Notes under the pieces: generated by a model
What the model saw: the letters and a program-made list of their open reading frames with translations, nothing else
The model's database searches: none
What the model was told of the DNA's origin: nothing
Source: an uncultured Acidobacteriota bacterium
GTDB taxonomy: Bacteria > Acidobacteriota > Blastocatellia > Pyrinomonadales > Pyrinomonadaceae
Reading direction: 5' to 3'
Assembly (NCBI GenBank): GCA_937873515.1
Contig: CALMYB010000007.1
Span: 124,001-188,000, forward strand
Length of the DNA: 64,000 bases
Translations under genes and position numbers: made by a program
Shown: positions 537-16,918 of the stretch, one piece after another
Position numbering within the stretch: the stretch's first letter is position 1
Layout: every line of letters starts with the position of its first letter

Positions 537-559
537 CCCGGAGCTTCTTGCAGGAAAAT

Positions 560-1333
560 CTATTGGATCTCAAATTTGGCAGCGATCACGAATCGCACCT
601 TCGTCGCCGTGAATCCAAGCGATGCGGAGTCGTCCGCTGAGGAGCCGCCATCCGATGAATCGTCCTTCGATCCGGACCTTCCAATAAGCTTGAACGGAAT
701 GCTATTGTTGGAGTTAAGGACGCCGCTGCGAAAGTTGCTCACTTCCTGGCCGTCGATCACCCACGAATTTGTGGATTCTTCACCTTCCTTGATGCTGATG
801 GCCTTTCCGACCTTTTCACCAATGGCATTCAGCAGGTAATCAGCTTTTGCCTTTGCGGCCTTTATCGCCTCGATCTTAACTTCGCGACGTATTTCGGTCA
901 TCCGCGAATTGTCGGTCGCAATAAGGTCGAGTTTAGAAACATTTAGGCGATCCACAATATCCTGTAGCGGCAAGATCTTATTAAGATCTCGAACCTTCAG
1001 TCGATAATCTTTAGTTGCAAGGACATCCTTGAGTTTCTTCTGGCGAAAGAAGGTCGCTGAAATATCGAAGACCGAAAGATCTTTGGCAACATCGATACCG
1101 AGCTTTCGGAGTTCATCACGAAGCGCCGCTTCTTGGGCCTCGATCGTGATCTTTTCCTTCTTTTCGAGCCGCTCGGCAAGCGTGATCTTGAAAGTAAACT
1201 CGTCCGGTATGACCATCTGCTCGGCCGAGCCCGACACTTCGATCACACGGGGTTCGGGCTGGTTTGTTGTTTGAGCAAATACACCGCCCGCGAACAGGCA
1301 AAGTAGTATCGACAGGGATTGCAGGGTTCTCAT
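560..1333 (-). CDS. SIMPL-domain (DUF541) exported protein
   Basis: The 257-residue protein begins with a Sec signal peptide (MRTLQSLSILLCLFAGGVFA, cleavage after AQ). The mature part carries the DUF541/SIMPL fold, recognised from EVSGSAEQMVIPDEFTFKITL near residue 33, and from the later blocks around FRQKKLKDVLATKDYRL and AIKAAKAKADYLLNAIGEKVGKAI. The family includes E. coli YggE and Brucella BP26, periplasmic proteins linked to oxidative stress or channel-like assemblies; the biochemical role is unsettled. An insertion near residues 200-235 is rich in Ser/Asp (SSDGGSSADDS) and is not typical of the family. The gene lies upstream of the partial CxxC protein in the same direction, with a hairpin between them. 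Confidence 0.85.
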   Translation of the reverse strand: MRTLQSLSILLCLFAGGVFAQTTNQPEPRVIEVSGSAEQMVIPDEFTFKITLAERLEKKEKITIEAQEAALRDELRKLGIDVAKDLSVFDISATFFRQKKLKDVLATKDYRLKVRDLNKILPLQDIVDRLNVSKLDLIATDNSRMTEIRREVKIEAIKAAKAKADYLLNAIGEKVGKAISIKEGEESTNSWVIDGQEVSNFRSGVLNSNNSIPFKLIGRSGSKDDSSDGGSSADDSASLGFTATKVRFVIAAKFEIQ

Positions 1334-1457: not shown

Positions 1458-1497
1458 AATATATTCAGTTGTCGAAACCGAGGAAGAAACTTTCGTC
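1458..1497 (-). repeat. Rhs core remnant at the 3' end of the array
   Basis: Read on the minus strand this stretch encodes TKVSSSVSTTEY, which is the same as an internal core segment of the complete units (compare 10698-10733). It is out of frame with the last Rhs unit, which enters it and stops inside it. Homology ends right after the TTEY codons. It is a recombination scar, showing that the array was once longer. Confidence 0.7.
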
Positions 1498-2610
1498 TGC
1501 CCTCATTGAAGTTAATGTTTCATTAGACGCTCCGGAATTATTGGGATCTCTCCGGCGGAATGGTCTCTCGGGACTCAATCCTAAGGAATCGATGAATCCC
1601 GTGGGCGAGTTCCTGACATAACTATATCGATTGAACATTTGGGAATCTCTAAGCGGAGCGTTCGCTCGCAAAGGGTCAACCGAAGCAAACCGCCCGAGGT
1701 GGTTTGCATACATCCTTGCCTGGGCGAAGTCGAGGTCGGTTTCGGGGTCGCGTTCGTAGCCGGTGAATTGTTTTCTTACGGAATCGGCAGAGTAATTTAA
1801 TCCGGTTGTTCGCTGTGCAGTAAAAATTTCTTCGCCGAATGGGTGGTAATCGTGGCGGGCGATGACGGCGCCGGTTTGATCCGTATTGATTCTTGGGCTT
1901 CCGAGATGGTCGGATGTAAGATAGGCGACTTTTGCGTCTTGTGGTGCGGCGACGATAGTTGAATATTCGCCGATAGGTTTTCCACCCGCGTCATAGACAA
2001 AGATCGTGGTTTCGCCAGTTCCGGGGACGTATTTCTTGATGCGTTTTCCGTCACCGTCGTAAGAATATTGGCCGATCGTGCTGTTGCTGTTAGATGCTGA
2101 GACCATCTTGTTCTCGGCGTCGTAAACGTAGGTTTGGCCATTCGCGTCTGCCGTGGTATTGCCGCTCGCGTCGTAGGAATATCCCTGCGACGTGAGACGA
2201 TTATTCGAAGCGCCGATCGTCGGGTTCGTTATCGCCGGGTTCACAAATGACGAAGGCATTGTCGTGTTGGCTTCATCAAAACGTCGATTGCCGTATCGGT
2301 CGAACGTGAACGTCTGCTTCCAAGATTGCGAAGCCGTGCCGCCCGCGGGCGTGACGTTCTCGACCGAACTCTTTAGACGATTGAGCTCATCGTAAGTGTA
2401 ATTCTGCACCGCAGTAAACCCTGTGTTGCTCCCGACGGTCGGAACGGTGATCGTTTGTGATTTCACGTTTCCGTTGTTGTCTATGGTGCCGTACGTGTAA
2501 TCTAGTTTCAGCTTGTCAGTGGCGTTTTGGACGGTGCCGAGGCCGATCTGTGTCGGTTGCAGACGCGAGTTGAACTGCGTCGTCTCCCAGCGGCCGTTGC
2601 CAAGCTGCAT
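1465..2610 (-). CDS. Rhs unit 1, truncated at both ends
   Basis: The frame encodes the last ~380 residues of an Rhs core with repeated YD motifs (YDASGNTT, YDAENKM, YSYDGDGKRIKK) and the Rhs-associated core box around ETDLDFAQARMYANHLGRF. Core homology extends upstream to about 2645, where an in-frame TGA ends it, 30 bases behind the stop of the TonB-C-like gene. After the DSLGL boundary, where the polymorphic tip normally begins, only ~37 residues remain. The last ones are read out of frame through a remnant of another Rhs core. There is no toxin domain and no partner gene behind it. It is almost certainly a decayed cassette; the annotated start (2610) is only an internal Met. Confidence 0.75.
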   Translation of the reverse strand: MQLGNGRWETTQFNSRLQPTQIGLGTVQNATDKLKLDYTYGTIDNNGNVKSQTITVPTVGSNTGFTAVQNYTYDELNRLKSSVENVTPAGGTASQSWKQTFTFDRYGNRRFDEANTTMPSSFVNPAITNPTIGASNNRLTSQGYSYDASGNTTADANGQTYVYDAENKMVSASNSNSTIGQYSYDGDGKRIKKYVPGTGETTIFVYDAGGKPIGEYSTIVAAPQDAKVAYLTSDHLGSPRINTDQTGAVIARHDYHPFGEEIFTAQRTTGLNYSADSVRKQFTGYERDPETDLDFAQARMYANHLGRFASVDPLRANAPLRDSQMFNRYSYVRNSPTGFIDSLGLSPERPFRRRDPNNSGASNETLTSMRADESFFLGFDN

Positions 2611-2674
2611 CGAAGCGACCGCTCCGGCGGCTGTGTACGTAAGCGTTCGCGTAAGTGTGCATCATGCCCGCCGG

Positions 2675-3115
2675 TCAGGGTTCGATTTCTACCATTCGAG
2701 CTCTAATCTCGATGATATTTGGGAGCGTGAAAATAATCTGGGCGTCTTCTGGGGAAGCATTCGACGATAGCAAAGTGAATTTGAACTTCACCAAATAAGC
2801 TCTATGCGAAGGCTTATCTGTCTGACGAAATTTCCACTTCAGGGCTGCACGCTTCGCCACTTGAAAGAAAAGTTTACTTCCTTCTTCGAGTGTGGCGGTC
2901 GATACAGTTCCAGACGTGTTAATTTGCAGCTTAAGCGTTACATCCCCCGATTTCAACCCATGCAACAGAAGTAGGGGGTAGGCCGGAGATACGACCTTAA
3001 TTGGAGCCTCTTGACTCTGGCCAATTCCAGCCACGGTTGTCAAGCCTATCAGCGTCAAGATGCCGATGGCGGCAACCACCCAAGTTCTACTTCTTCGTGT
3101 TATAGCTTTCAGCAT
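2675..3115 (-). CDS. Membrane-anchored TonB-C-like partner of Rhs unit A
   Basis: The 146-residue protein has a basic N-terminus and one hydrophobic segment (residues ~12-32), then a domain resembling the TonB C-terminal fold: P-A-Y-P-L-L-L followed by GDVTLKLQINTSGTVSTATL and AALKWKF. In TonB-family energy transducers this domain contacts outer-membrane receptors, but here there is no proline-rich spacer. Its start overlaps the end of Rhs unit A by 29 bases and is backed by a strong ribosome binding site (GGGAGA, six bases before ATG). Position and export signal suggest an envelope-located immunity or accessory protein for the unit A metallopeptidase-like tip. This role is inferred. Confidence 0.65.
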   Translation of the reverse strand: MLKAITRRSRTWVVAAIGILTLIGLTTVAGIGQSQEAPIKVVSPAYPLLLLHGLKSGDVTLKLQINTSGTVSTATLEEGSKLFFQVAKRAALKWKFRQTDKPSHRAYLVKFKFTLLSSNASPEDAQIIFTLPNIIEIRARMVEIEP

Positions 3116-5555
3116 AGATTCTCCCTTTCAGGTCAAGACTGCGTACTTTATTAGCGATTAGTGTTTTTCTGTCCGACTCTGATATTCCACGCTTCCAAAC
3201 CTCTGAAGCACTATCATTTGTCATTTGCGCGATCGCCGAACTCACCCCATAGGCCCTAGTCTCACTCTCCTTAAGCGTTATATTCTCTGGGAGCTTAGTT
3301 GGATCCGAGTCCGTAGATGTGCCAGCAATAAGCTCTTGGATCCGTTTGTTGTAACCGGTAATATAATCGTTCCGATCCGCCGCGTGACTCCCTTCATGCA
3401 TCACCTTGCCAATTGTTATTGACCCTTCAAATGTAACAACAATATTCGGAGTTGCAATACTATTCTCGTCGGAAGTCCAGGCTACTGTCTTACCGTCTCC
3501 ATTCGTTCCCCATTTAGTCTCGGCTTCACCCTCTTTCACCTTGCCGACCTCTACCGTAACGCCGGCCTGACCAAAACTTCCGTAGGCTTTTGTTGCACGG
3601 TTCAGGGCGTCGGCCTGCTCTTTGGTAATGGTGCCTTTTTTGAGAGCCTCGGACACCATTGCGTCCATCCCGTTGATTATGGCCTTAATTTTATTTCGCT
3701 TCTCAACAATTGCAGCCCCGGCCGCGGTCTTGTTGAGATCATCGTCCGAGGCATCCCCGCCGAGCGACTTTCCCCAAACATACATTCCGGTTGGATCGAC
3801 AAACAAGAATGGGTTGTCACAGGCATACAGATAACGATTCCAGGATATTGGATCAACAAGAGTGCCGGAAGATAGCAAGGGGTCAACAGAATTAAATCTG
3901 CCGAGGTGGTTGGCGTACATACGGGCTTGGGCAAAATCGAGGTCGGTTTCTTCGTCCCTCTGGTAGCCGGTGAATTGTTTTCTTACAGAATCGGCAGAAT
4001 AATTTAATCCGGTTGTTCGCTGTGCAGTAAAAATTTCTTCGCCGAATGGGTGGTAATCGTGGCGGGCGATGACGGCGCCGGTTGCGTCGGTGTTGATTCG
4101 CGGAGAACCTAAATGATCCGAGGTTAGATAATTTACTTTTGCGTCGTTCGTTGAAGCCAGAACAGTTGAATACTCACCAATAAGCTTACCGGCGGCATCA
4201 TAAACAAAGATCGTGACCTCTCCCGCATCTGGAACTATTTTCTTGATACGTTTTCCGTCTCCGTCGTAAGAATATTGGCCGATCGTGCTGTTGCTGTTAG
4301 ATGCTGAGATCATCTTGTTCTCAGCGTCGTAAACGTAGGTTTGGCCGCCTGCGTCTGCAGTCGTATTGCCGCTCGCGTCGTAGGAATATCCCGGCGACGT
4401 GAGACGATTATTCGAAGTGCTGATCGTCGGGTTCGTTATCGCCGGGTTCACAAATGACGAAGGCATCGTCGTATTCGCCTCATCAAAACGCCGATTGCCG
4501 TAGCGGTCATAAACGAAAGTTTGTTTCCACGACTGCGAGGCCGAGCCGCCCACGGGCGTGACGTTCTCTGTCGCATCTTTCAAACGATTGAGCTCATCGT
4601 AGTTGTATGTCTGAACCGCAGTAAACCCGTTGTTGCTCCCGACGGTCGGAACGGTGATCGTTTGGCTTAAGACATTGCCGTTATTTGCCGTCGTTCCGTA
4701 TGAATAATCGAGCTTCAGTTTGTCGGTGGCGTTTTGAACGGTGCCGAGGCCGATCTGTGTCGGTTGCAGACGCGAGTTGAACTGCGTAGATTCCCAGCGG
4801 CCGTTGCCAAGCTGCATCGAAGTTATAGCCCCCGAAGCGTTGTATGTGAAGCTCTTCGCGTAGCTGAAATAGCCTTGCGGATCGCTGCACGTCGCCGTCA
4901 CGCCATTCACCACCCCGCAGCGTGCACTCTGCACCAACGCGAGTTCGCCGTCATTGTCGAGCACGTTCTTGACCTTGCGGCCGCTTGGATACGTCTCTTC
5001 GATCAAGGCTCCCGACAGGTTGTAAGTATAGCCCGTCGAATACCCCGCCGCATCGCCGCCGTCGGTTGTCTGCTTCGCCGCCAACACTCTCCCTAAGATG
5101 TCAAAACTCGTGTATTCCGTTGTCGAAACGCTCGAAGAAACTTTCGTCAACCGCCCCTTCGCATTCGGCAGGTTGTCGTAGAAGTAAGACACGTTTGGAG
5201 TCGTGTAGCCGGTTTCGCCCGTGTAAGCCCTTGTCAGGACGCGGTTTAGGGCGTCGTATGTGTAGGCCGTCACCACCCCGCGTGCGTCCGCTTTTCTCGT
5301 GAGATTGCCGCTCGCGTCGTAGCTGTACTGGATCGTGCCGGATTCCGGATTCTGTGCCGAAACGAGCCTCGAAAGCGAATTGTACGCGAAATTCCGCGTC
5401 TGCACACCCTGATCCACCGTCGTGAGGTTGTTCAGCGTGTCGTAGGTGTAGAACGTCGCCTGCGTCGGACTCGAAGCATCGCCAAGCTGCCCGCCCGCGT
5501 CCGGCTCGTCAACCCTTATCAGCTGCCCCAACGCATTCGTCACCGAACGCCGCAC
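3087..5555 (-). CDS. Rhs unit A with zincin-like C-terminal tip, 5'-truncated
   Basis: The 822-residue frame is Rhs core up to the DPTG boundary near residue 590. A 232-residue unique tip follows. The tip has HEGSHAAD at about residues 720-727, an HExxH zinc site, and a later ESETRAYG that could supply the third ligand Glu, so a metallopeptidase-type toxin is likely. Core sequence begins at 5579, directly after the TAG of the preceding lipoprotein gene and in its frame, encoding TVTDQAGKVRRSVTN. The only starts are an internal GTG (5555) and later Mets, with no ribosome binding site. The piece is probably silent unless recombined with a full-length rhs or translated by read-through. Confidence 0.75.
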   Translation of the reverse strand: MRRSVTNALGQLIRVDEPDAGGQLGDASSPTQATFYTYDTLNNLTTVDQGVQTRNFAYNSLSRLVSAQNPESGTIQYSYDASGNLTRKADARGVVTAYTYDALNRVLTRAYTGETGYTTPNVSYFYDNLPNAKGRLTKVSSSVSTTEYTSFDILGRVLAAKQTTDGGDAAGYSTGYTYNLSGALIEETYPSGRKVKNVLDNDGELALVQSARCGVVNGVTATCSDPQGYFSYAKSFTYNASGAITSMQLGNGRWESTQFNSRLQPTQIGLGTVQNATDKLKLDYSYGTTANNGNVLSQTITVPTVGSNNGFTAVQTYNYDELNRLKDATENVTPVGGSASQSWKQTFVYDRYGNRRFDEANTTMPSSFVNPAITNPTISTSNNRLTSPGYSYDASGNTTADAGGQTYVYDAENKMISASNSNSTIGQYSYDGDGKRIKKIVPDAGEVTIFVYDAAGKLIGEYSTVLASTNDAKVNYLTSDHLGSPRINTDATGAVIARHDYHPFGEEIFTAQRTTGLNYSADSVRKQFTGYQRDEETDLDFAQARMYANHLGRFNSVDPLLSSGTLVDPISWNRYLYACDNPFLFVDPTGMYVWGKSLGGDASDDDLNKTAAGAAIVEKRNKIKAIINGMDAMVSEALKKGTITKEQADALNRATKAYGSFGQAGVTVEVGKVKEGEAETKWGTNGDGKTVAWTSDENSIATPNIVVTFEGSITIGKVMHEGSHAADRNDYITGYNKRIQELIAGTSTDSDPTKLPENITLKESETRAYGVSSAIAQMTNDSASEVWKRGISESDRKTLIANKVRSLDLKGRIYAESYNTKK

Positions 5556-5579
5556 CTTCCCCGCCTGATCCGTAACCGT

Positions 5580-6155
5580 CTAATAATTACTAGGTTCAGG
5601 GTTTGGTTGAGAAAGGCGTTTCTCATGAAAACTAATAAATGCTTGCCTCATAAATTCAACGAGATCGTCCGCTTCATAATCGGTCAGTGCTCGTTCGCCA
5701 AAGGGCGTTCTTACGTGAGTTTCACGAACCGACGCTAGGGTTCTTAAGTATTCATCGTTGAGTTTCTGTAGTCTATTGCCTTCAAGCTCGCGAACGTTCA
5801 AGAGGAAATGCCAATAGTTATCCAACAGCTTTTCTGCGTCGGGCGAAAGGTCAACCCTGACGGCCTTCTCAGAATAAGTATTGCCTTCGCCTTGGACCGA
5901 ATACTCAAGCCAGACATTTGGTCGGCTAATACTCTTATTACCGTCCGAGTCGACAACTAATTTTGCCGATCCACCGACGACGTGGCCATCGTGCGGGTCG
6001 CGGGGCGCAACAGAAGCCGCACCCATCGACTGATCAATCGGGGTCGGGCTTGGGACGCCTAAATCCGAATTCTCTCCAGCTCTGGTCTGAGTACAGCCGG
6101 TCATGGCGAGTATGGTAAGGAAAAGCAGGAATAATAAGGAAAAGATGGTACGCAT
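5580..6155 (-). CDS. Lipoprotein partner of Rhs unit B
   Basis: The 191-residue protein starts with a lipoprotein signal (hydrophobic residues 3-18, lipobox LAMTGC with Cys at ~21). A Ser/Pro/Thr linker follows, then a mixed domain with no family I recognise; the second half is helical and acidic (YEADDLVEFMRQAF). ATG 6155 is preceded by a near-perfect ribosome binding site (GGAGGGG). It sits 104 bases behind Rhs unit B. The TAG stop is abutted without a spacer by the core of Rhs unit A. By position it could be an envelope immunity or accessory lipoprotein for the unit B tip; the sequence gives no independent evidence. Confidence 0.65.
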   Translation of the reverse strand: MRTIFSLLFLLFLTILAMTGCTQTRAGENSDLGVPSPTPIDQSMGAASVAPRDPHDGHVVGGSAKLVVDSDGNKSISRPNVWLEYSVQGEGNTYSEKAVRVDLSPDAEKLLDNYWHFLLNVRELEGNRLQKLNDEYLRTLASVRETHVRTPFGERALTDYEADDLVEFMRQAFISFHEKRLSQPNPEPSNY

Positions 6156-6258
6156 AATTAACCCCTCCGTTGCGAAATATCAATTTCTTCAAGCGACTCA
6201 TAAAGTTCGCGCTACAGCCTATCACGAATAAATTAGATCCGAGTGCACCTAAACTATT

Positions 6259-8226
6259 TCATTCACGTGGTAAGGTTTTTTCAGCCTCCTTCGCTAAACG
6301 CTCGACCTCCTTGTTCTTGTCGAGATCCTTTTCCACTTGTGACACTGCGACCGCGTTCGCACCGGCTAGCAGGCCATTTATTTCGTCTGTGGTGAGTGCC
6401 ACGGGAACGTCGGGCGAAGCCGTTGTCACCGTAGGCGTGTTTTCGAGCGCGATCCTCGCGCTAGATCTAAGAGCGTCATTTGCATTGTCGCCCTGAATCC
6501 GAATGTCCGCCGTATTTGTTATGTCTAAGGTTACACTAAGCCCAGTCGTAATGTTGACACTCCCAGTCTTATTCGTGTCTCCACTCCCGCCCACACTGGT
6601 GCTAAGCGTGGCACTTGAAAGATCAGCCAGCCCTTTGTTTTCTTCCGTGTTTCGAATCGCGCTCCTGACCGTATGTTCATTCTGGTACACTTTGCCAGCA
6701 TAGTCGGAAAGGATATTGTTTACTGCATCATTAGTCTTGACAACGTTTAACTCTCGTCCGGAAGGAACTGTTTCGCTCTTGTATCCCGTCACGACTATGC
6801 CACCTCCTACACCTGACGTTATCGGAATTCGGACTACCATGGTTCCGGGAACGAAGGTTCTGCCTACAATTTGGAAGGTCCGCCTAGGTGTCTCGCTTTG
6901 GACAGGAGGCTTGCCCGCCTGTAGGCCCTTAGCATCCGTCAGGATCAGCGGGCGGTTCATTGTGTAGGCGTAGCGGTTGAAGGTTTGGGGGTTGGCGGAT
7001 TTTCCTGATGCGAGGAGTGGATCGACAGCGGTGAAGCGGCCGTGGTCGTTGTAGTAGTATCTGGCTTCGGCGAAGTCGAGATCGGTTTCCTCGTCTCGCT
7101 GATAGCCCGTGAACTTCTGTCGAACGCCGTCTGAAATCCCGTATTTCAGAGCGGCTGAACGATACGACGCGTCGGGGGTGATCTCTTCGCCGAACGGCAT
7201 AAAGTCGCGCCGTGAGACCACCTCGCCCTGCTTATTCGTTATCACTCTTGGACTCCCCAAAGGGTCGGTCGCCGTGTAATTCACCGTCGGACTCGACGCC
7301 TGCTCGGTCGAATACTCCGCGATCAATTTCCCAAACCCATCATACACAAACACCGTCGTCTCGCCCGTTGATTGCACAACCTTCTTGACGCGTTTTCCAT
7401 TCCCGTCGAAATAGTACTGACCAATCGTTGAACTACCCGAGTTTCTGACCTCGATCTGTTTATTTTCACCATCGTAAGTGAAAGTGCGGCCTTCGGCGTC
7501 GGTGATGACATTTCCGGCAGCATCATACGTGTAGCCTTGTCCCGACGTGAAGCGATTGTTCGCGGCATCAACCGAAGGGTCGGTAACGTTGGGATTTGCA
7601 AACGACGCGGGCTGCGTTGTGTTTGCTCGATCAAAGTTTCGGTTTCCGTATCTGTCGAATACGAAGGTTTGCTTCCAATTCGTCGTTGTTCCGGTCTTTT
7701 CTTCGGCCATCTTCAATCGGTTGAGCGAATCGTAGGTGTAAGTCTGGTCGAAAACCATATCCGTCTGCCCGCTACGTGCGACCGTAATTTTCTGACTTAG
7801 AACGTTTCCGTTGTTGTCGGCATTTCCGGTCGTGTTGTAAGTGTAATCTAGTTTCAGCTTGTCAGTGGCGTTTTGGACGGTTCCAAGCGCGATCTGTGTC
7901 GGTTGTAAGCGGCTGTTGAATGTCGTACTTTCCCACCTGCCGTTACCAAGCTGCATCGAAGTCACGGCACCCGCGGCGTTGTATGTGAAGCTCTTCGCGT
8001 AGCTGAAATAGCCTTGCGGATCGCTGCACGTCGCCGTCACGCCATTCACCACCCCACAACGCGCACTCTGAACCATCGAGAGATCGCCGTCATTGTCGAG
8101 CACGTTCTTCACCTTGCGGCCGCTCGGATACGTCTCTTCGATCAGCGCCCCCGACAGGTTGTAAGTATAGCCCGTCGAATATCCCGCCGCATCGCCGCCT
8201 TCGGTTGTCTGCTTCGCCGCCGTCAC
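6259..8226 (-). CDS. Rhs unit B with unrecognised C-terminal tip, 5'-truncated
   Basis: The 655-residue frame begins inside the core (TAAKQTTEGGDAAGYSTGY). Core homology starts around 8255 at YTAFDILGRV, about 15 bases behind the stop of the preceding exported protein. YD repeats and the core box (ETDLDFAEARYYYNDHGRF) are intact up to DAKGL near residue 434. The 221-residue tip has a beta-rich first half with a glycine-rich segment (TSGVGGGIVV), a Ser/Thr/Asn-rich middle and a charged helical end (VEKDLDKNKEVERLAKEAEK). I do not recognise a catalytic motif. No start signal is visible. Confidence 0.7.
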   Translation of the reverse strand: MTAAKQTTEGGDAAGYSTGYTYNLSGALIEETYPSGRKVKNVLDNDGDLSMVQSARCGVVNGVTATCSDPQGYFSYAKSFTYNAAGAVTSMQLGNGRWESTTFNSRLQPTQIALGTVQNATDKLKLDYTYNTTGNADNNGNVLSQKITVARSGQTDMVFDQTYTYDSLNRLKMAEEKTGTTTNWKQTFVFDRYGNRNFDRANTTQPASFANPNVTDPSVDAANNRFTSGQGYTYDAAGNVITDAEGRTFTYDGENKQIEVRNSGSSTIGQYYFDGNGKRVKKVVQSTGETTVFVYDGFGKLIAEYSTEQASSPTVNYTATDPLGSPRVITNKQGEVVSRRDFMPFGEEITPDASYRSAALKYGISDGVRQKFTGYQRDEETDLDFAEARYYYNDHGRFTAVDPLLASGKSANPQTFNRYAYTMNRPLILTDAKGLQAGKPPVQSETPRRTFQIVGRTFVPGTMVVRIPITSGVGGGIVVTGYKSETVPSGRELNVVKTNDAVNNILSDYAGKVYQNEHTVRSAIRNTEENKGLADLSSATLSTSVGGSGDTNKTGSVNITTGLSVTLDITNTADIRIQGDNANDALRSSARIALENTPTVTTASPDVPVALTTDEINGLLAGANAVAVSQVEKDLDKNKEVERLAKEAEKTLPRE

Positions 8227-8269
8227 TCTCCCTAAGATGTCAAACGCCGTGTATTTCTTAGAAGCATAG

Positions 8270-8716
8270 CTAAAGAACGCAATCCTTTGGCTTTACCTCA
8301 TGCTTCACTTCGACCACCTTAACCTGATTCTCAAAACAGTCATAAGTTAAGAGCACTGATACATACTTATCGCTTTGCGATGCGTACGACCGTCTTACGG
8401 CCAATATGACATCGAACTTTGGAACAACTTCGATGCCGTTTACGATATAATACACCACGAGTCTGTACTTTCCTCTTGCGATGTTCTTAATCTGGAAGTC
8501 GCCGTTCTCATCGGTCTCGACGGCAGCGATTAGACTATCGGGGTGACCAAGCTTTTGGAGTTCGACTCTTGTATGCGGCAAAGGGTGGCTCCCCTGCTCG
8601 CCAGGCACAATAATTTTCCCTTGCACCTTATCGATATTCACAATCTCTAACGGGCACATTGACTGACCTAAACTTGACCCGTATCCCGCCAACACTATAA
8701 CTGACACAGTTAACAT
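8270..8716 (-). CDS. Exported CnaB/carboxypeptidase-regulatory-like partner of Rhs unit C
   Basis: The start at 8716 is chosen because AGGGGAGG lies a few bases upstream and the protein then opens with a clean signal peptide (MLTVSVIVLAGYGSSLGQS). An upstream ATG at 8752 overlaps the stop of Rhs unit C. The mature part is one beta-sandwich domain of the CnaB/carboxypeptidase-regulatory type: VQGKIIVPG, a TRVELQKLG strand, then ETDENGDFQIKNIARGKYRLVV. Two cysteines (near MCPLE and YDCFEN) could form a disulfide. Position directly behind a zincin-tipped Rhs unit suggests an envelope immunity or cofactor role, by inference only. Confidence 0.65.
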   Translation of the reverse strand: MLTVSVIVLAGYGSSLGQSMCPLEIVNIDKVQGKIIVPGEQGSHPLPHTRVELQKLGHPDSLIAAVETDENGDFQIKNIARGKYRLVVYYIVNGIEVVPKFDVILAVRRSYASQSDKYVSVLLTYDCFENQVKVVEVKHEVKPKDCVL

Positions 8717-8744
8717 GAACCTCCCCTTTTTAGCGAGTGCAACA

Positions 8745-10865
8745 TTAATCATTCTTGTCCTCCAAATATCTTATTGCTTTCTGAATTCCCGGATGCTTGT
8801 CTATCTTGCTTCCAAGACTCTGTTGAATGACCGGTACCGCGGTTCGTTCCGCTCGGTTATCGGTTTGCACAGCAAACTCGTCTATGCTGTTAACTCCGGC
8901 TTCTTTATAGACAATTTTTAGCTTTTCCTGATATTCCGACGAAACTGGTCCACGAGCCTTGAGAGTGTCCATAGCGTCCTGGAAAGCCTTCCATACATTC
9001 GGGCGTTCGTTCGCATCTTCAACATGCCCAAACTCGTGCGCTATAACGCCAGCACCTAAAATTTCAGAATCGACCCTTTCCTCTCCTAATGCTCTCTGAA
9101 GCGGATACTGTTTTTCGTCACGCATGGCGGCAGCAGATCGATGATCGATTTCGGGCCCCAACGAAATGGTAGCGCCAATGAGCTTCCCGTCGGCGAACTT
9201 GAAGTCATGTGTTAACGCGCCGTTACGCTTCTTAGGATCCATATTTACTACCAATTTGAAGTTGCGATCGTTATTGTATTTGTCCCAGAGCTTCTTGCCC
9301 TTTTTGGTCGCGAGAAACGCAGCTTTCCACTTTTGATAGTCTTCATTATCGTCAAGGCTGGAATCGTCAATAATTTGCCCAGTTGGATCAACTAGGACGA
9401 GCGGGTTGTTTCGCACATAGCCGTAGAGGTTTATGCGCTGGGGATCCAGCGGCCGGGAAGGCTCCATTAAGATAGGATCAGTCGATGAAAACCTTCCTAG
9501 TATATTTGCATACATCCTCGCTTGGGCGAAGTCGAGGTCGGTTTCGGTGTCGTTGATGTAACCTGTGAAGCCTTGGCGGACATCATCGGCGAAGTATTTG
9601 TCTGCACTTGTTCTGCCGCCGAGGGCAATTATATCTTCGCCGTAGGGCATGTAGTCGGTTCGTGAGACAACCTGCCCGTATTGGTCGGTGTTAATTCGAG
9701 GCGTACTGAGGTGGTCATTGGTTAGATATTGAACCTTCGCGTCCTGAGCAGGAACGACATTTGTGGAATATTCGGCAACCATTTTGCCACTAGCGTCGTA
9801 GACAAAAATTGTCGTTTCCCCGGATGACGGAACCACCTTCTTTACACGTTTGCCATCACCATCAAAGTAGTAAGTTCCGAGCGTCGCGTTGCTGGAGTTC
9901 TTGGCTTCTTTCTGTTTGTTTTCCGCGTCGTAAGTGAATGTGCGGCCTTCGGCATCTTCGATGACATTTCCGGCGGCGTCATACGTATAGTCTTGCTCCG
10001 AAGCCATTCTATTGTTAGCCGGATCGAGTTCCGGGTTGAATATTTTCCTGTCCGCCGCGCAAACCGTGAAGTTCGGCGATGTGCCGCAGTTCTTCGGCAG
10101 CGTCGTGGTTTCCGCTTCGTCGAAATTGCGGTTGCCGTAGCGGTCGAAAGTATATGCCTGCTTCCAATTCTGCGTTTGATCGGTCATTTCCGTCGCCGAC
10201 GTAATCCGGTTCAGCGAATCGTATGTGTATGCCTGCTCGAAAACCAGATCGCTTTGACTCGGACGTTTGACCGTGATCGTTTGGTTCAACACATTGCCGT
10301 TGTTTGCCGCGGTGCCGTAGGTGTATTCGAGTTTGAGAAGATTTTGGCTTGTTGGCCCCGATCCGAGCCCGATCATCGTCGGCTGCAGTCTTGAATTGAA
10401 CTGCGTCGATTCCCACCTGCCGTTTCCAAGTTTCATTTCAGTGACAGCACCTGCCGCATTATAGGTAAAATTCGACGCATACGGGCGATAAAAATCACTG
10501 GAGTTTTTCTTACTTTGAACGATCGAGAGGTCTCCGCTATCGTCAAGAACGTTCTTGACCTTTCTTCCGCTCGGATAAGTCTCCTCGATCAACGCTCCGC
10601 CCAGGTTGTAAGTATATCCCGTCGAATACCCCGCTGCATCGCCGCCATCGGTTGTCTGCTTGCTCGCCGTCACTCTCCCTAAGATGTCAAACGCCGTGTA
10701 TTCCGTTGTCGAAACGGAGGAAGAAACTTTCGTCAACCGCCCCTTCGCATTCGGCAGGTTGTCGTAAAGGTAAGACACGCTGGGCGAAATCATCTTGCCC
10801 CTCGAATATAATGCGAATTTCGGAGGTCGGGAGCCATATTCGGCGAGATCGATCCAATCCGACAC
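8745..10865 (-). CDS. Rhs unit C with HEFGH zincin tip, 5'-truncated
   Basis: The frame (706 residues) begins with ~28 residues unrelated to the core, then enters the core at VSYLYDNLPNAKGRLTKV. The core ends at DPTGQ near residue 497. The 210-residue tip contains AGVIAHEFGHVEDA with HEFGH at about residues 610-614, a canonical HExxH zinc site, and a downstream acidic helix (NRAERTAVPVIQQ) that could carry the third ligand. A secreted metallopeptidase toxin is the best reading. The tip differs from that of unit A apart from the zincin motif. The start codon is not a convincing one and the Rhs N-terminus is missing. Confidence 0.75.
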   Translation of the reverse strand: MSDWIDLAEYGSRPPKFALYSRGKMISPSVSYLYDNLPNAKGRLTKVSSSVSTTEYTAFDILGRVTASKQTTDGGDAAGYSTGYTYNLGGALIEETYPSGRKVKNVLDDSGDLSIVQSKKNSSDFYRPYASNFTYNAAGAVTEMKLGNGRWESTQFNSRLQPTMIGLGSGPTSQNLLKLEYTYGTAANNGNVLNQTITVKRPSQSDLVFEQAYTYDSLNRITSATEMTDQTQNWKQAYTFDRYGNRNFDEAETTTLPKNCGTSPNFTVCAADRKIFNPELDPANNRMASEQDYTYDAAGNVIEDAEGRTFTYDAENKQKEAKNSSNATLGTYYFDGDGKRVKKVVPSSGETTIFVYDASGKMVAEYSTNVVPAQDAKVQYLTNDHLSTPRINTDQYGQVVSRTDYMPYGEDIIALGGRTSADKYFADDVRQGFTGYINDTETDLDFAQARMYANILGRFSSTDPILMEPSRPLDPQRINLYGYVRNNPLVLVDPTGQIIDDSSLDDNEDYQKWKAAFLATKKGKKLWDKYNNDRNFKLVVNMDPKKRNGALTHDFKFADGKLIGATISLGPEIDHRSAAAMRDEKQYPLQRALGEERVDSEILGAGVIAHEFGHVEDANERPNVWKAFQDAMDTLKARGPVSSEYQEKLKIVYKEAGVNSIDEFAVQTDNRAERTAVPVIQQSLGSKIDKHPGIQKAIRYLEDKND

Positions 10866-10941
10866 CTTTGTTAGCCAAAGGTTTTTCGTATGAGTACCAA
10901 CGAGCTATTCGGATTTGCCGTCCTTTCGTCAGGCCAAGTAC

Positions 10942-11370
10942 TTATTGATTCGCAACCACGGAACACGTAAAGCGCGTCGATATACGCGAAATGAACGAGA
11001 GGTCGCTGGAATCCAGGTCAATGCCTGCTCCGGCATCCTCCGTCATAATCAACAGATACATGACGGCTTCAAAGCCCATTGAGTCGACAAGTGCTTTAAT
11101 TAGGTGAACTTTGCTTTCGAGAATTTCCCGAAGCCGGATGAGATGGTCGTTAAATTGAACATTTTCGCCGACGGAATAATATTCAAGAGCCCACAAACCA
11201 TGGGGAGATCTATACAATTGTCCCTGCGGCCCCTTACCGATTATCTGCCCCGCCTGAAGTGTCCGAGTGGGCTGAAGATCGAGCTTTTCGCTTACGATCA
11301 AGCAATCATGTGAAAAAGTCTTTATAGTAAAGGAGGTTTTCGTTTCACATCGAAAGTTGTCTTTTTCCAT
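10942..11370 (-). CDS. DUF4279-family protein, partner of Rhs unit D
   Basis: From ATG 11370 the protein is 142 residues and cytosolic. It follows the DUF4279 pattern: an N-terminal beta strand region (TSFTIKTFSHDCLIVSEKLD), LQPTRTLQAGQ, the G-L-W-A-L-E-Y segment, a helix with HLIRLREILESKVHLIKAL, and a final beta hairpin around AGAGIDLDSSDLSFISRI. DUF4279 genes often occur as immunity-like genes next to polymorphic toxins. The chosen start is 23 bases behind the stop of Rhs unit D, with AGG seven bases upstream; a start at 11421 would overlap unit D. It is the only partner here without an export signal, which suggests that the unit D tip acts in the cytoplasm. Confidence 0.75.
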   Translation of the reverse strand: MEKDNFRCETKTSFTIKTFSHDCLIVSEKLDLQPTRTLQAGQIIGKGPQGQLYRSPHGLWALEYYSVGENVQFNDHLIRLREILESKVHLIKALVDSMGFEAVMYLLIMTEDAGAGIDLDSSDLSFISRISTRFTCSVVANQ

Positions 11371-11392
11371 ATACCTGTAATTTCCAAGCGTC

Positions 11393-13807
11393 TTACGGAA
11401 TAAACTGGTAAATGTTACCAATCGCTTGCTTTGTGTTTGGATCGACGATATCGCCGTTCCTCATGATCTTAAAGTGGTCGTCGTTTCTTAGGCCGAGGAA
11501 GGCTTTCATACTTTCGATCGCCCGTTTACCTTGCTCTTGTGTAAGCCCTAACGCTCTCAATGTCGCTGGCCGCAGCGTGTTACCGCCCGACTGCAGTGTA
11601 TTCGAGTCGTGAACGGTTTCTTCAGTTCCAACATCGCCGGTCGGCTCGGGTTCCATCTGGTAGCAGGGCAATCCGAGATCCTCGGCAAGTTTCTCTCGGC
11701 GCCAAAAATCACGTTCATAAAATTCCTGCTCAGCTGGGGATCGTACTGGCGGTTCGTTGACGGCCGGATCGCCGAAGGCATCATCGATCTCTTTTGCTTC
11801 CCGTTCCGCCTCAGACCGTTCGGGGAATAATTCGTCGTCTATTTGCTGCGACGTACCGCCGGACGTGATGTGACGGGCTATCCACCCAAACATTCGCCTG
11901 TACCATGGTCTATGTTTTTCGCTCCCATTTACTACAACATCAAATTCACCCAAGTCATTCTTTTTCTTCTTGTTACAACCTTCCTCGCCCTGATGACCAC
12001 ATGATTCTACGCTAAGACCGCTCGGATCGCGCAGGTCTAGCGGATCGTTGAGGACATATACATATCGATTCAGAGTCTGAGGGTTCAGCTTGCGGGCGGA
12101 CGTAGATGACCGATCGACCGAATAAAAGCGACCAAGCAAGTGTGAATAATATCTGGCCTGTGCAAAGTCCAAGTCAGTCTCGCGATCTTCCTCGTAGCCT
12201 GTGAATGTCTGTCTCGCGGTGCTTGTCAGATAGACCGGGTAGCTGGTCCTTTGTGATGTCGAAATTTCGGCACCAAACGGATAATAGTCGTGCCTTGCAG
12301 CAATCTCACCGTTTTCATTGGAGTCAATTCTTGGGGTTCCCAACGGGTCGGTCGTCAAATAGTGAACATGCGGATCCGAAGGAGTTTGGTCGGCATATTC
12401 TGCGATCAGTTTTGAGAAAGCATCGTAGACAAAAATCACCGTTTCAGTGTTCGTCGTTTTCTTGACGCGGCGATTCCCCCCGTCGTAATAATACTGGCCG
12501 ATGATCTGGTTGGAGCCGTCTCTTACTTCGGTCGCTCTGTTCCGTCCATCGTATAAAAAGATCCGCCCCAGCGTGTCCTTAGTTACGTTCCCATCTGTAT
12601 CGTACGTAAAGTCATCCACACCGTCGCTGTCCTGATCCTGCTCTATTCTATTCGTCGTTGCCGAAACCGATGGGTTTTCGACCTTGCGGTCGGCGGGGCA
12701 GACTGTGAAGTTCGGGTTGGTGCCACAGGATTTTGCGAGTGTTGTAGTGTTCGCCTCATCAAACGTTCGATTCCCAAATCTATCATACACAAAGGTCTGT
12801 TTCCACGTTTGACTACCCAAGATCGCCTCGGTTGCGTCATGAAGTCGATTTACGGAATCGTAACTATAAGACTGTATCGCAACAAATCCTATGGAACTTC
12901 CCACGGTCGGTACTGTTATGGTCTGTGATCGAAGATTTCCGTTATTCTGAGTGGTTCCATAACCAAACTCCAGTTTTAGTAGGTCTGTGGCATCTTTTGT
13001 AGTGCCAAAGCCTACTTGGATCGGTTGCATACGAGAGTTGAAATGAGTTGACTCCCAATGGCCGTTTCCTAATCGGAGAAACGTCACCGCACCGACGGCA
13101 TTATATGAAAACGAGCTCGCATAATTCCAAAGGCCGCCCATTGACTTCTTGCTTTGTACGGCCGACAACCGGCCGCGGTTATCAAGAACGTTTCTTACAA
13201 CCCTTCCGCTCGGGTAGGTCTCCTCAATGAGATCTCCCGACAGATTATACTTATAGGCCGTGTCAAATGTATGGCCGTCAGTGATTTGCTGATGTGAAAG
13301 TACGCCCCCCAAAGCATCGAACTCCGTGTATTTTGTGACGGAAAAAGGGCTGGCAGGATTGCCGGATGTTATTTTAGTTAATCGTCCTTTTGAAAATACC
13401 ACGCCCGAGTCATCGTAAGTGTAATCTACTTCCGGCGTAGTGTCGGAAAAGGATTTTTGGGTAAGGCGGTTTAGGGCGTCGTATGTGTAGGCGGTCGCAA
13501 CCCCGCGTGCGTCGGTCTTTTGCGTGAGGTTGCCGCTCGCGTCGTAGCTGTACTGGATCGTGCCGGATTCAGGATTCTGGGCCGAGACGAGCCTCGAAAG
13601 CGAATTGTACGCGAAATTCCGCGTCTGCACACCCTGATTCACCGTCGTCAGATTATTGAGCGTGTCGTATGTGTAATACGTCGCCTGTGTCGGACTCGAA
13701 GCATCGCCAAGCTGCCCGGCAGCGTTCGGCTCGTCAACCCTTATCAGCTGCCCCAACGCATTCGTCACCGAACGCCGCACCTTCCCAGCCTGATCCGTCA
13801 CCGTCAA
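11393..13807 (-). CDS. Rhs unit D with unrecognised C-terminal tip, 5'-truncated
   Basis: This 804-residue frame has the longest core. It opens at TVTDQAGKVRRSVTN, the same codon at which unit A opens, although the sequences before the two are unrelated. Its central core is more divergent than the others (YSHLLGRFYSVDRSS). After DPSGL (near residue 597) comes a ~207-residue tip with a Cys pair, a Lys-rich stretch, an acidic linker and a compact end domain (LRALGLTQEQGKRAIESMKAF, then HFKIMRNGDIVDPNTKQAIG). I do not recognise the end domain. The nominal start is a TTG without a ribosome binding site; the frame is open only back to 13823. Confidence 0.7.
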   Translation of the reverse strand: MTVTDQAGKVRRSVTNALGQLIRVDEPNAAGQLGDASSPTQATYYTYDTLNNLTTVNQGVQTRNFAYNSLSRLVSAQNPESGTIQYSYDASGNLTQKTDARGVATAYTYDALNRLTQKSFSDTTPEVDYTYDDSGVVFSKGRLTKITSGNPASPFSVTKYTEFDALGGVLSHQQITDGHTFDTAYKYNLSGDLIEETYPSGRVVRNVLDNRGRLSAVQSKKSMGGLWNYASSFSYNAVGAVTFLRLGNGHWESTHFNSRMQPIQVGFGTTKDATDLLKLEFGYGTTQNNGNLRSQTITVPTVGSSIGFVAIQSYSYDSVNRLHDATEAILGSQTWKQTFVYDRFGNRTFDEANTTTLAKSCGTNPNFTVCPADRKVENPSVSATTNRIEQDQDSDGVDDFTYDTDGNVTKDTLGRIFLYDGRNRATEVRDGSNQIIGQYYYDGGNRRVKKTTNTETVIFVYDAFSKLIAEYADQTPSDPHVHYLTTDPLGTPRIDSNENGEIAARHDYYPFGAEISTSQRTSYPVYLTSTARQTFTGYEEDRETDLDFAQARYYSHLLGRFYSVDRSSTSARKLNPQTLNRYVYVLNDPLDLRDPSGLSVESCGHQGEEGCNKKKKNDLGEFDVVVNGSEKHRPWYRRMFGWIARHITSGGTSQQIDDELFPERSEAEREAKEIDDAFGDPAVNEPPVRSPAEQEFYERDFWRREKLAEDLGLPCYQMEPEPTGDVGTEETVHDSNTLQSGGNTLRPATLRALGLTQEQGKRAIESMKAFLGLRNDDHFKIMRNGDIVDPNTKQAIGNIYQFIP

Positions 13808-13864
13808 CAGAAGTGGATCCAGTTAACGCTCATTTCCTCGGAACTTATCTCCAAAAGCTGTTCG

Positions 13865-14440
13865 CTATTTCTGGCAAGCCGTCGCCTTGATACCCGTGTT
13901 CAGAGAGCCGATGTCAGCACCGCGAAAGTAAACGCGATGCTCCGGCTCCTTGCGAGTGTCACCACTTTTCGCCATTTCCCATTCATAGAAAAATTCAACA
14001 TATATCTTTAAGCCTTTCCGCAAAAGCTCAATGGGAACTGAAAAGAGTATTGAGTCATTAGACGCAAGCCACCCCCCGCCATTTGTAAAGTGATATTCAA
14101 GTTTCGGTATCTTTATCCCTTTAACGTCCTCTAACTGATCTCTTTCTGCGTAATAAAACACAGGAATTTTCTCATTGTTCGGGATGGCATATACTTTCGC
14201 ACCGTTTTGTAACTGAATAGGCTTTTTCGTGGGGAAATATGATTTGTCTACTTCAACATACACGTGCCAGATAGTGTTGTTGTTCATTCGCAAGTGGATC
14301 TTCTTCTCGTCCTGACAAACGTAACTCAAGTACACTGTTGGCTTTTCGGGATTGATGCGTGCTGTCGATTCAGTCTCTTCTCTATTCTGCGAAAAAGTGG
14401 TAGCTGCGAGGCAAAGCATCAAAATCAGTATTTTTTTCAT
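13865..14440 (-). CDS. Exported protein of unknown function, orphan cassette partner
   Basis: ATG 14440 is supported by AGAGG seven bases upstream and by the signal peptide that follows (MKKILILMLCLAATTFSQ). The mature ~170 residues are beta-rich with few conserved features: YVCQDEKKIHLRMNNNTIWHV, then YAIPNNEKIPVFYYAE and a C-terminal FFYEWEMAKSGDTRKEPEH. I recognise no family. It lies 42 bases before the Rhs core of unit D in the same direction, where the other intervals of the array hold partner genes. It may therefore be the partner of a deleted Rhs unit that once lay upstream. Confidence 0.65.
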   Translation of the reverse strand: MKKILILMLCLAATTFSQNREETESTARINPEKPTVYLSYVCQDEKKIHLRMNNNTIWHVYVEVDKSYFPTKKPIQLQNGAKVYAIPNNEKIPVFYYAERDQLEDVKGIKIPKLEYHFTNGGGWLASNDSILFSVPIELLRKGLKIYVEFFYEWEMAKSGDTRKEPEHRVYFRGADIGSLNTGIKATACQK

Positions 14441-14505: not shown

Positions 14506-14727
14506 TCATAGTTCGAGTTGAGCGGAGCGCCATTTCTTCCAACGCTCGGGAATTGGTTTGCCGCCGGTCTGTTCGCGGAGTTCGAGGAACTGGTAATACT
14601 GATGTTGAAGGTTTTGGAGCATCCTGATCTTTTCTTCGGGAGGAAGGGAACGAAGGTAAGCGCGCGACCTCGCCTTGCGTTCGGCCAGTACCCGTGCAGC
14701 GGGAGATGGTTGATATTCTTCGCTCAT
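14506..14727 (-). CDS. Small charged protein paired with a nucleotidyltransferase
   Basis: The start at 14727 gives a 73-residue protein and an ATGA overlap with the stop of the upstream gene; an ATG 33 bases further upstream is possible. The sequence is helical and strongly charged (SPAARVLAERKARSRAYLRS, then LPPEEKIRMLQNLQHQYY and ERWKKWRSAQ). I do not recognise the family. The tight coupling to the nucleotidyltransferase gene suggests that the two products act together, perhaps as a toxin-antitoxin-like pair. Confidence 0.6.
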   Translation of the reverse strand: MSEEYQPSPAARVLAERKARSRAYLRSLPPEEKIRMLQNLQHQYYQFLELREQTGGKPIPERWKKWRSAQLEL

Positions 14728-15254
14728 CTCGGAAAAAAGCGGTTTCTCACCTTGTCCCATTCTAATGCCAAGCCGTATCGCTCAACAACCGAAAAATCTT
14801 CCTCGGTGACCAGTCCGGCATCCACGAACCTGGCGATCTTCTCGAAGTCTTTCGACCGGCCCGCCGAGAGCCACATCAAAACTAGAAAATGCGGCTCGAT
14901 AACGGGTACTGACGTGTTTCCGACGGGAATAAGCCGAGGCGAACCAATCGCATCGAGCCATAACGGATCCGTTCCACTCTCTACGAATTGTACCAACCAC
15001 CCGTGGATCTTTATGAACTCATGATCGAATGCGAACCCTTGCTCCCGTGCGAAATCATAGATCGGCGTCATATCGAGTACCAGACTTGAGCTTTCCTTCG
15101 AGAACACAAAGAAAATATCAACGTCAGCCGTCGCGATCGGTTCATCGAGCAGGGTGGCAGCAAATGCACCGCCGATAGCGTACTCACCTATGATGTCGGC
15201 GTTCCGCATCTGCTCACAGACAGCAATCAACTGATCGATGGTGCCAACGTTCAT
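14724..15254 (-). CDS. Nucleotidyltransferase-fold protein (AbiEii/DUF6036-like)
   Basis: The 176-residue protein shows the minimal nucleotidyltransferase pattern: GGAFAATLLDEPIATADVDIFF, with a GG/A motif followed by T-x-D-x-D for metal binding near residues 42-45, and a C-terminal helical region (VLMWLSAGRSKDFEKIARFVDAG) typical of AbiEii/AbiGii or DUF6036-type proteins. Such domains occur as toxins that modify RNA or proteins and as kanamycin nucleotidyltransferase relatives. The ATG overlaps the stop of nadE (ATGA) and the stop overlaps the start of the small downstream gene. The coupling to nadE may simply be transcriptional. Confidence 0.7.
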   Translation of the reverse strand: MNVGTIDQLIAVCEQMRNADIIGEYAIGGAFAATLLDEPIATADVDIFFVFSKESSSLVLDMTPIYDFAREQGFAFDHEFIKIHGWLVQFVESGTDPLWLDAIGSPRLIPVGNTSVPVIEPHFLVLMWLSAGRSKDFEKIARFVDAGLVTEEDFSVVERYGLALEWDKVRNRFFPR

Positions 15255-16918
15255 TTGATGCTCCGTTTGTACTTATGCGTTATGGGTCGGCGGCGGCCGA
15301 CGCCGATGGCGTTTTTTGAGACGATGATCGTTGGCGGGAGCTGTTGTCGTTTGAATTCGTTCGCGGGATGCTCGACCTTGTTGAGGATCCAATAGACGCG
15401 ATCGCGATCATGGCCTGCGGCGACGATCTCTTCGGGCGAAGCCTTTTGCTCGAAATACATCTCGAGGATCGGATCCATCAAGGGATAAGGCGGCAGGCTG
15501 TCCTCGTCCTTTTGGTTCGGCGCGAGTTCGGCGGATGGCGGCTTTTCGATAATGCGGTTCGGGATGATCTCGCGTCCGGCACGCGCGTTCAGTTCGCGTG
15601 CGATCGCCCAAACTTCCGTCTTTAACACGTCGCCGAGTACGGCAAGGCCGCCATTCGTGTCGCCGTAAAGCGTGCAGTAACCGACGGCAAGTTCGCTTTT
15701 GTTGCCCGTCGAGAGCAGCAGACGCTTTTCCGCGTTCGAGATCGCCATCAGGATAAGTCCGCGAAGGCGCGACTGCATATTCTCGGCTGCGAGTGATTCG
15801 CCGCCTCGCGTCGGCTTGTCGAGCCGAAGCTGTTTTGCAAGCTGTTCGAAGGTGTCGGAGATCGGTTCAGTTCGAGACTCGCAGCCTAGATTTGCGACGA
15901 GCTCGACGCTGTCCGAGATGCTGCCTTCCGAGGAATACGGCGAAGGCATCATAACGCAGAGCACATTCTCGGGGCCGAGAGCCTCGGTTGCGAGTGCCGC
16001 GACGAGAGCCGAATCCATTCCGCCGGAGAGGCCGAGCAGAGCCTTCTCAAAGCCATTCTTGCGGGCGTAATCGCGTATGCCGAGCACCAACGCATTGTGG
16101 ATCGAGCTTATCTCGCCGCCCGTAATACCGCGTGCGTCGGGCTTGCGGACATCGAGTTCGACCGTCTCGACGAATTCTTCGAACGCCGGAGCCTGCAGGA
16201 TGATGTCGCCTTCTTCGTCAGCGATGAGACTGGCTCCGTCAAAGACGATCCCGTCGTTGCCGCCGACGAGATTCACAAAAACGATCGGGATCTTTTGCAG
16301 CTTCGCACGGTGCGCGACCATGTCGCAGCGAAGCCGGATCTTGCCCTTGTTGTATGGTGAGGCGTTTATCGAGACGAGAACTTCGGCGCCGAGCGAGATC
16401 ACTTCGTCGGTCGGATCGGTCTCGTATAGGCGATCTTTCCAAAATGTCTTGTCGTTCCAAAAATCTTCGCAGACAACGACGCCGATCTTTTTGCCATTCA
16501 CGTTGAAAAGCCGATGCGTGCCCGCATCCGCAGGCTCGAACCAACGCGGATCGTCGAAGACGTCGTATTCCGGCAGGAGCGACTTGTCAGCGAACCCAAG
16601 CAGCCTGCCATTCGAGATGACGGCGGCGGAGTTGTAAAGCCGTCGCCCGTCGTTGTCCTCGTTCTGGCGAACTGTTCCGACGATCGCCGTGATTCCTGCC
16701 GTCACAGGAATGATCTCGGCGAGAGGTTCGCCGACACGAGCAACGATGTCGCGATCCTGGAACCAATCCTGCGATGTGTAGCCGTGCGTTGCGACCTCAG
16801 GAAAGACGATGAGGTCCGAACCCTGCACCTTCGCTTTCTCGATCGCCGCGACGATCTTCGCGGTGTTGCCCGCGACATCGCCGTTCGTCGTATTGATCTG
16901 CGCGATAGTGACTTTCAT
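15251..16918 (-). CDS. nadE: Glutamine-dependent NAD+ synthetase
   Basis: The 555-residue enzyme amidates nicotinic acid adenine dinucleotide to NAD+ with glutamine and ATP, the last step of NAD synthesis. Residues 1-260 are a nitrilase-type glutaminase with the triad E41, K112 (ADKSLLPEYDVF) and C150 (VVVCEDFW). Residues ~270-555 are the synthetase domain with the PP-loop SGGMDS at 298-303 and later GNKSELAVGYCTLYGD. Length and domain order match the two-domain bacterial family. It overlaps by four bases both with the AbrB-like gene before it and with the nucleotidyltransferase gene after it, so the cluster is probably one operon. Confidence 0.95.
   Translation of the reverse strand: MKVTIAQINTTNGDVAGNTAKIVAAIEKAKVQGSDLIVFPEVATHGYTSQDWFQDRDIVARVGEPLAEIIPVTAGITAIVGTVRQNEDNDGRRLYNSAAVISNGRLLGFADKSLLPEYDVFDDPRWFEPADAGTHRLFNVNGKKIGVVVCEDFWNDKTFWKDRLYETDPTDEVISLGAEVLVSINASPYNKGKIRLRCDMVAHRAKLQKIPIVFVNLVGGNDGIVFDGASLIADEEGDIILQAPAFEEFVETVELDVRKPDARGITGGEISSIHNALVLGIRDYARKNGFEKALLGLSGGMDSALVAALATEALGPENVLCVMMPSPYSSEGSISDSVELVANLGCESRTEPISDTFEQLAKQLRLDKPTRGGESLAAENMQSRLRGLILMAISNAEKRLLLSTGNKSELAVGYCTLYGDTNGGLAVLGDVLKTEVWAIARELNARAGREIIPNRIIEKPPSAELAPNQKDEDSLPPYPLMDPILEMYFEQKASPEEIVAAGHDRDRVYWILNKVEHPANEFKRQQLPPTIIVSKNAIGVGRRRPITHKYKRSIK

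Follow-up and report, generated by a model that had tools for sequence, protein, structure and literature searches.

The locus described here raises the question of what a row of five headless Rhs cores, most of them followed by a small partner gene, may do for its host, and how its cassettes came to be there. It lies in a window of 64,000 nucleotides (the whole stretch of DNA analysed, G000:C7:124001-188000) within a 348-kb contig of an uncultured member of the Pyrinomonadaceae, whose assembly (G000) comprises 3.56 Mb in 27 contigs and is 97.5% complete. As detailed below, the array is probably a headless stack of displaced Rhs cassettes at an ectopic site, and its likeliest role is that of an immunity store and a shared cassette pool.

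On the minus strand, the order of genes from 5' to 3' is nadE, two small ORFs, G0, E, pE, D, pD, C, pC, B, pB, A and the SIMPL gene (Table 1). An earlier note on this DNA had described five headless cores in a row, and five 5'-truncated minus-strand Rhs ORFs are indeed present: all of them match YD-repeat and/or Rhs_assc_core models (Pfam, NCBIfam), and the Rhs_assc_core end of the core (TIGR03696) scores above cut-off in 5/5 units. The first four, E, D, C and B, are each followed by a different small gene of their own, as that note had also stated. No full-length rhs gene was found near the array, no integrase was recognised by eye beside it among the ORFs of 560-16918, and inverted repeats of at least 60 nt are absent from positions 1-20000 of the window. 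The two small ORFs between nadE and the array have no significant Pfam match and are missing from the corresponding sites of G018 and G028; they occupy this position in G000 only and are possibly toxin-antitoxin-like.

Table 1. Features of the array and its flanks in the window, and further headless sites in G000 and its relatives
Feature	Location	Strand	Remarks
nadE (NAD synthase), left flank of the insertion site	15251..16918	-	Pfam NAD_synthase and CN_hydrolase
Two small overlapping ORFs (176 aa and 84 aa), nadE-array interval	14506..15254	-	176-aa product nucleotidyltransferase-like by eye
G0, orphan partner-type gene, exported-looking, no preceding toxin	13865..14440	-	ATG at 14440, start of the array
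Unit E	11393..13807	-	core fragment 12008-13807 and tip E 11393-12007
pE, partner of tip E	10942..11421	-	DUF4279 (PF14106, E 1.7e-8); without signal peptide
Unit D	8745..10865	-	core fragment 9372-10865 and tip D 8745-9371; HEFGH, zincin-like
pD, partner of tip D, exported-looking	8270..8752	-	transthyretin/carboxypeptidase-regulatory-like, sub-threshold in Pfam
Unit C	6259..8226	-	core fragment 6922-8226 and tip C 6259-6921
pC, partner of tip C, lipoprotein-like	5580..6155	-	
Unit B	3087..5555	-	core fragment 3783-5555 and tip B 3087-3782; HEGSH motif
pB, partner of tip B, membrane/periplasmic	2675..3115	-	TonB_C-like, PF03544 above cut-off
Unit A, shortest core fragment, 34-aa truncated tip, no partner	1465..2610	-	decayed end of the array
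SIMPL (DUF541) gene, right flank of the insertion site	560..1333	-	Pfam SIMPL
Headless site beside AlbA_2-like gene	G018 C16, G028 C3		
Headless site near rho	G000 C1, G018 C33		
Headless site accA-ssb	G018, G028		
Headless site by DUF4139-like gene	G000 C3, G028 C1		

None of the five cores has an attached head, an export signal or a convincing translation start, in agreement with the earlier description; weak in-frame starts with partial Shine-Dalgarno matches occur in E (13312), D (10793), A (2610) and B (5084). Full-length relatives are about 1,480-1,800 residues long with a hydrophobic N-terminus, and on such a protein the cores start at about residue 933 (E and B), 1063 (D), 1104 (C) and 1178 (A). 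The clustering of these starts partly reflects the beginning of alignments in conserved stretches, and we do not claim a recombination hot spot from it. The cores had been called near-identical, which is an overstatement. Aligned cores share 51-67% of their amino acids, with A and B reaching 83.5%, and near-identity is limited to short stretches of DNA, the longest exact match being 84 nt (A/B).

Four of the tips are long, open and mutually unrelated, except for a 15-residue match at an E-value of about 1, and to this extent the claim of five different tips holds; the tip of unit A is reduced to 34 aa. The partners do not match one another either, and four of the small genes (G0, pB, pC and pD) encode hydrophobic export-type N-termini, as read from the sequence. 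Strong ribosome-binding sites, ascribed earlier to most of the small genes, are seen in front of pD and pC, with 5/6 matching bases in a run. Those of pB and G0 are moderate (4/6; G0 has an SD-like GAGAGG upstream of its ATG), and that of pE, whose listed start is TTG with an ATG possible at 11370, is poor. Pairing of tips with partners as putative cognate immunity genes is drawn from adjacency and co-occurrence (D/pD, B/pB).

Two of the tips carry a metallopeptidase-type motif, HExxH, which is invariant in 9 members of the tip-D family and 7 of the tip-B family. An AlphaFold2 model of tip D, built from three sequences, reached a pLDDT of 83; its best VIA matches were zincins (zinc metallopeptidases) with middling Z scores of up to 7.0, and a plain Foldseek search of the model gave no significant match. 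The tip B model, built from one sequence, was unusable (pLDDT 38), and homology between tips B and D was not retained, profile comparison aligning the HExxH stretch alone. Tips C and E have no relatives in other genomes among the 119 of the family and no meaningful Pfam or NCBIfam match, and tip E has none among PDB sequences. The tip-D profile, run against named genomes, returned only two distant acidobacterial relatives. The same domain occurs in exported-looking HExGH proteins, about 300 residues long, which many members of the family encode in single copy (L082, L087, L101, L110, L111), so that a resident peptidase-like protein may be the origin of this toxin type, with the single-copy proteins as a possible cellular source of tip D. 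Among the partner-type genes, G0 is weakly related (25-26%) to genes of other Rhs arrays, one such gene directly following a full-length Rhs in G033, and TonB_C-type partners like pB recur at several additional headless sites.

The insertion site can be followed through related genomes. It is empty in G024, G020 and G008, where nadE and the SIMPL gene are adjacent at a distance of about 60-80 bp, and the two genes are directly adjacent in others too. The interval measures 2.2 kb in G018 and contains core scraps and one lipoprotein-type gene. In G028 each flank sits close to a contig end (C4 and C6), and short-core Rhs cassettes fill both of these ends. In G018 as in G028, the final codons of nadE run directly into a core fragment, and the junction is the same. 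Thus, headless Rhs material occupies this site in three species, and its content differs between them. The flanking genes themselves diverge unequally from G018, with dS of about 0.15-0.18 for SIMPL vs 0.66 for nadE, which suggests past recombination around the site.

Evidence on how the cassettes travel comes first from unit D. Tip D and pD are found in G018 elsewhere on the chromosome, beside folK/panB-type genes (named by eye), and DNA identity is mostly 92-100% over about 1.3 kb, from about position 9550 to about 8200 of the window. This block takes in the first ~80 bp of the next core, and upstream of it, inside the core of D, identity drops to 57-62%. The G018 counterpart of pD is 96% identical, and dS amounts to 0.079 for tip D and 0.039 for pD compared with about 0.18-0.95 for genes around the site, which points to a recent transfer or exchange. 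The G018 copy of the tip is frameshifted near its end; its pD is intact.

A second set of junctions was found in G003, where the core end of a head gene is 82-98% identical to that of unit C. There, another tip and another partner follow the C-like core, and then comes pC (82% amino acid identity). Behind it, the stop-to-core junction is unchanged and about 0.6 kb of the unit B core follows at 81-99% identity, after which the tip is a different one. The conserved C-core end, and pC with the start of the B core, have dS values of 0.29-0.46 vs 0.875 for nadE. Survival of pC behind another toxin is the pattern expected of a putative immunity gene left in place after tip replacement. A window tip joined to a complete Rhs, which the earlier note had suggested looking for, does exist in a relative: tip B ends a 1762-aa full-length Rhs frame in G024 (74%), as well as a 408-aa orphan in G008 (73%), and pB relatives that are 49% and 42% identical stand behind the related tips. 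Weaker relatives of tip B occur on heads in G033 and G038, and one of tip D on a second G024 head. On the evidence of these alignments, cassettes have been swapped between species and between chromosomal sites by recombination within the shared core.

Heads that would fit the window units are found in other species. In G000, there are 30 Rhs_assc_core matches, representing about six heads and about 23 orphans, and the seven sister genomes range from one head without orphans up to about three heads and 20 orphans. Between the window units and the six own heads and other compared arrays of G000, no exact match of at least 25 nt was detected, the maximum being 20 nt. The core of unit C (7403-8244) matches a full-length head of G018 at 96.6% over 842 nt, of which 446 nt are exact, and units of G003 and G024 share exact matches of up to 203 nt with one window unit or another. 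The link between cores and full-length rhs genes that the earlier note proposed to seek at the DNA level is present in a relative and missing from the own heads. Since the best match of the G018 head among the heads of G000 is 61%, this core lineage is represented in the assembly by the headless array alone. The loci of G018 and G003 are orthologues that adjoin a type I restriction gene, and stretches of the G018 head core reappear as orphan core in G003. In headed arrays of relatives, orphans and their own head share exact matches of at most 85 nt. A 1110-aa orphan on contig C20 of G000 (L010:8466-11798) and a head on C9 (L012:2-5350) have an exact match of 347 nt, so that loading onto an own head may work for another core lineage in this genome. 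Four G000 contigs (C20, C27, C9 and C13; L010, L011, L012 and L014) begin inside full-length rhs genes. This points to assembly breaks in shared rhs 5' regions, and further heads may be unassembled. The assemblies of G000, G018, G003 and G028 are drafts, in which mis-binned single contigs or an unassembled head are possible.

The nadE-SIMPL site is one of several. Headless groups also stand on contigs C1, C3 and C10 of G000. When orthologous headless sites are compared among sister species, the flanks are conserved (79-96%; the genes at these extra sites were named by eye) and the content differs. At one such site shared by G018 and G028, the left junction is the same and the tips differ. A common left end, CTCACACCCAAACCTGCGTAAACTTTTATCTGTGGACGG, occurs with a few changes at the AlbA_2-like, rho, accA-ssb and DUF4139-like sites, where it precedes the first core scrap or partner gene; at some sites a partner gene follows this 45-nt sequence directly. 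The 45-nt sequence was noted at L062:10634, L063:6497, L064:4042, L094:9418, L142 and L145, and it adjoins a dispersed repeat (gtgcggtttgatacattttgtgcggtttgtgctatc) with more than 20 matches in each of G000, G018 and G028. We rejected the left end as a feature specific to Rhs arrays: the dispersed repeat, which recurs in many other locations, makes up the upstream half of it, and two more partial copies are not followed by Rhs sequence. A right-end junction is likewise common to different sites, namely the nadE site of G018 and contig C3 of G000. Core scraps at different sites of G018 and G028 end near the same codon (..NERG) and pass into the same dispersed repeat (..TTAGTCCCCGTAGGGGACGCGAGATAATAGCCCAGGGTAAGGCC; L051, L053, L143, L146). 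Either end junctions have spread from site to site by copying, or this spot is a target of the repeat. Partner genes and core scraps with no intact tip make up the nadE and rho sites of G018 and the accA-ssb sites of G018 and G028. This persistence of partners at several sister sites devoid of tips favours an immunity store over a toxin bank. More tentatively, and with doubt prevailing, the headless cassettes of the subclade may form a dispersed, chromosome-wide banking system, with fixed sites (nadE-SIMPL and the four others named above, these four with the same left end by a lineage-specific dispersed repeat) that would be refilled with different cassettes in each species by homologous recombination via core scraps and repeats, and that would serve mainly as an expressed immunity library.

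Several other explanations of the array were considered. That several rhs genes were collapsed in assembly is barely credible: other rhs loci of G000 do sit at contig ends, whereas the array lies inside its contig with syntenic flanks, its units are just 51-84% identical in protein sequence, and Rhs cassettes or remnants occupy the same site in sister species; the artefact that the earlier note had named as a danger is dismissed on these grounds. It is also highly improbable that translation of the orphans begins at internal starts and that they work as intracellular toxin-antitoxin pairs, as has been claimed for an orphan RHS element of Salmonella (PMC7043789). The few in-frame starts with partial Shine-Dalgarno matches would be in its favour, but these matches are weak, and most partners have export-type N-termini, which suit toxins encountered in the envelope better than a pair acting in the cytosol. 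A further reading is a bank whose tips are recombined through the core onto full-length rhs genes of the same genome, as shown for Salmonella; the earlier note had proposed recombination onto a full-length rhs located elsewhere. Its idea of displaced cassettes exchanged inside a shared core is borne out; loading onto own heads is not, and appears improbable for the window. Six heads are available, and the C20/C9 match indicates that such exchange may occur for another core lineage, yet the window units share no more than 20 nt exactly with these heads, compared with a shared region of 522 bp at 95% in Salmonella (PMC3967940).

The most serious competitor, although itself rather unlikely, is that the array is debris of a lost Rhs locus without present function. 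In keeping with this, unit A is truncated and partnerless, no head is left, the site in G018 has degenerated, and the few changes in pD (its dN/dS rests on just 11) do not reject neutrality. Against it, four long frames and five partners are intact, the exchange of the D cassette was recent (dS 0.04-0.08), and constraint is seen on pC (w 0.36) and the cores (w 0.17-0.19), part of which may predate the headless state. Moreover, the content of headless sites differs between sister species, from which we infer that the sites are being refilled.

The preferred explanation, a headless stack serving as immunity store and cassette pool, can be put as a sequence of steps. The comparisons show that a tip and its partner are exchanged as one unit, by crossing over in the conserved core that borders them at both ends, between species and with headless sites included. 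The array may once have had a head, lost together with its tip so that partner G0 was left in front; the offset ends, G0 without a toxin before it and A without a partner behind it, are what such a loss upstream of G0 would leave. Alternatively, it may have been imported already headless. With no head, signal or good start, the cores are presumably not made or exported as toxins in G000, and as the assembly seems to hold no recombination-competent head, the tips could hardly be loaded onto its heads, which lack matching DNA. Immediately usable would be the partner genes, several with their own ribosome-binding sites and, to judge from these, probably expressed, as immunity against neighbours bearing these tips. 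The silent tips would form a pool, to be activated if recombination places a cassette on a head of the same core lineage in a relative. Against this explanation, 4/5 window tips are open and two have an intact HExxH, so that no decay of toxin function is visible here.

The general kind of event, C-terminal displacement, is already known, and the present arrays are a headless, multi-site variant of it. As far as our searches reach, what is new is that headless arrays of several units occupy recurrent sites, their compatible heads being in other species; none of the papers searched combines rhs, orphan and Acidobacteri-, and cassette arrays and acidobacterial polymorphic toxins are included in the survey of Zhang et al. 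2012 (PMC3482391). Core-mediated exchange of polymorphic-toxin cassettes is thereby seen outside Proteobacteria, at junction resolution and at loci without any toxin head, which makes it testable whether orphan modules persist for their toxins or for their immunity genes.

In Enterobacteriaceae, dissociated rhs tips arise by C-terminal displacement with core-driven exchange (Jackson et al. 2009, PMC2935791). The likeness extends to core fragments of varying length, unrelated tips that mostly lack a translation start, exchange confined to one core lineage and the lateral supply of tips. However, the enterobacterial fragments are preceded by an intact rhs whose core is almost the same as theirs, whereas here the assembly contains no attached or matching head and cores within one array differ by 16-49%. 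The orphan rhs-CT/rhsI of Salmonella Typhimurium, which is activated via recombination (Koskiniemi et al. 2014, PMC3967940), similarly combines a silent tip and an immunity gene, no start or export signal and recombination in the core; it is a single orphan by its head (522 bp at 95%), in contrast to five units and no compatible head. Bee-gut Snodgrassella belongs to the same known context (PMC5727410). As in orphan cdiA-CT/cdiI arrays (Poole et al. 2011, PMC3150448), the exchange unit starts at a conserved boundary motif and ends at the boundary of the following orphan, and immunity genes retain expression signals; CdiA is a two-partner secretion system with orphans attached to cdiBAI, unlike the Rhs described here, whose heads have a hydrophobic, Sec-like N-terminus (by eye). 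For a comparison with integrons, it is relevant that the exchange junctions sit in the Rhs core. Finally, immunity genes outlast displaced toxins in the T6SS orphan immunity arrays of V. cholerae (Kirchberger et al. 2017, PMC5361080) and in polyimmunity loci (Zhang et al. 2012, PMC3482391), as they do at the sister headless sites, but those loci consist of immunity genes only, while the window alternates toxin tips and partners.
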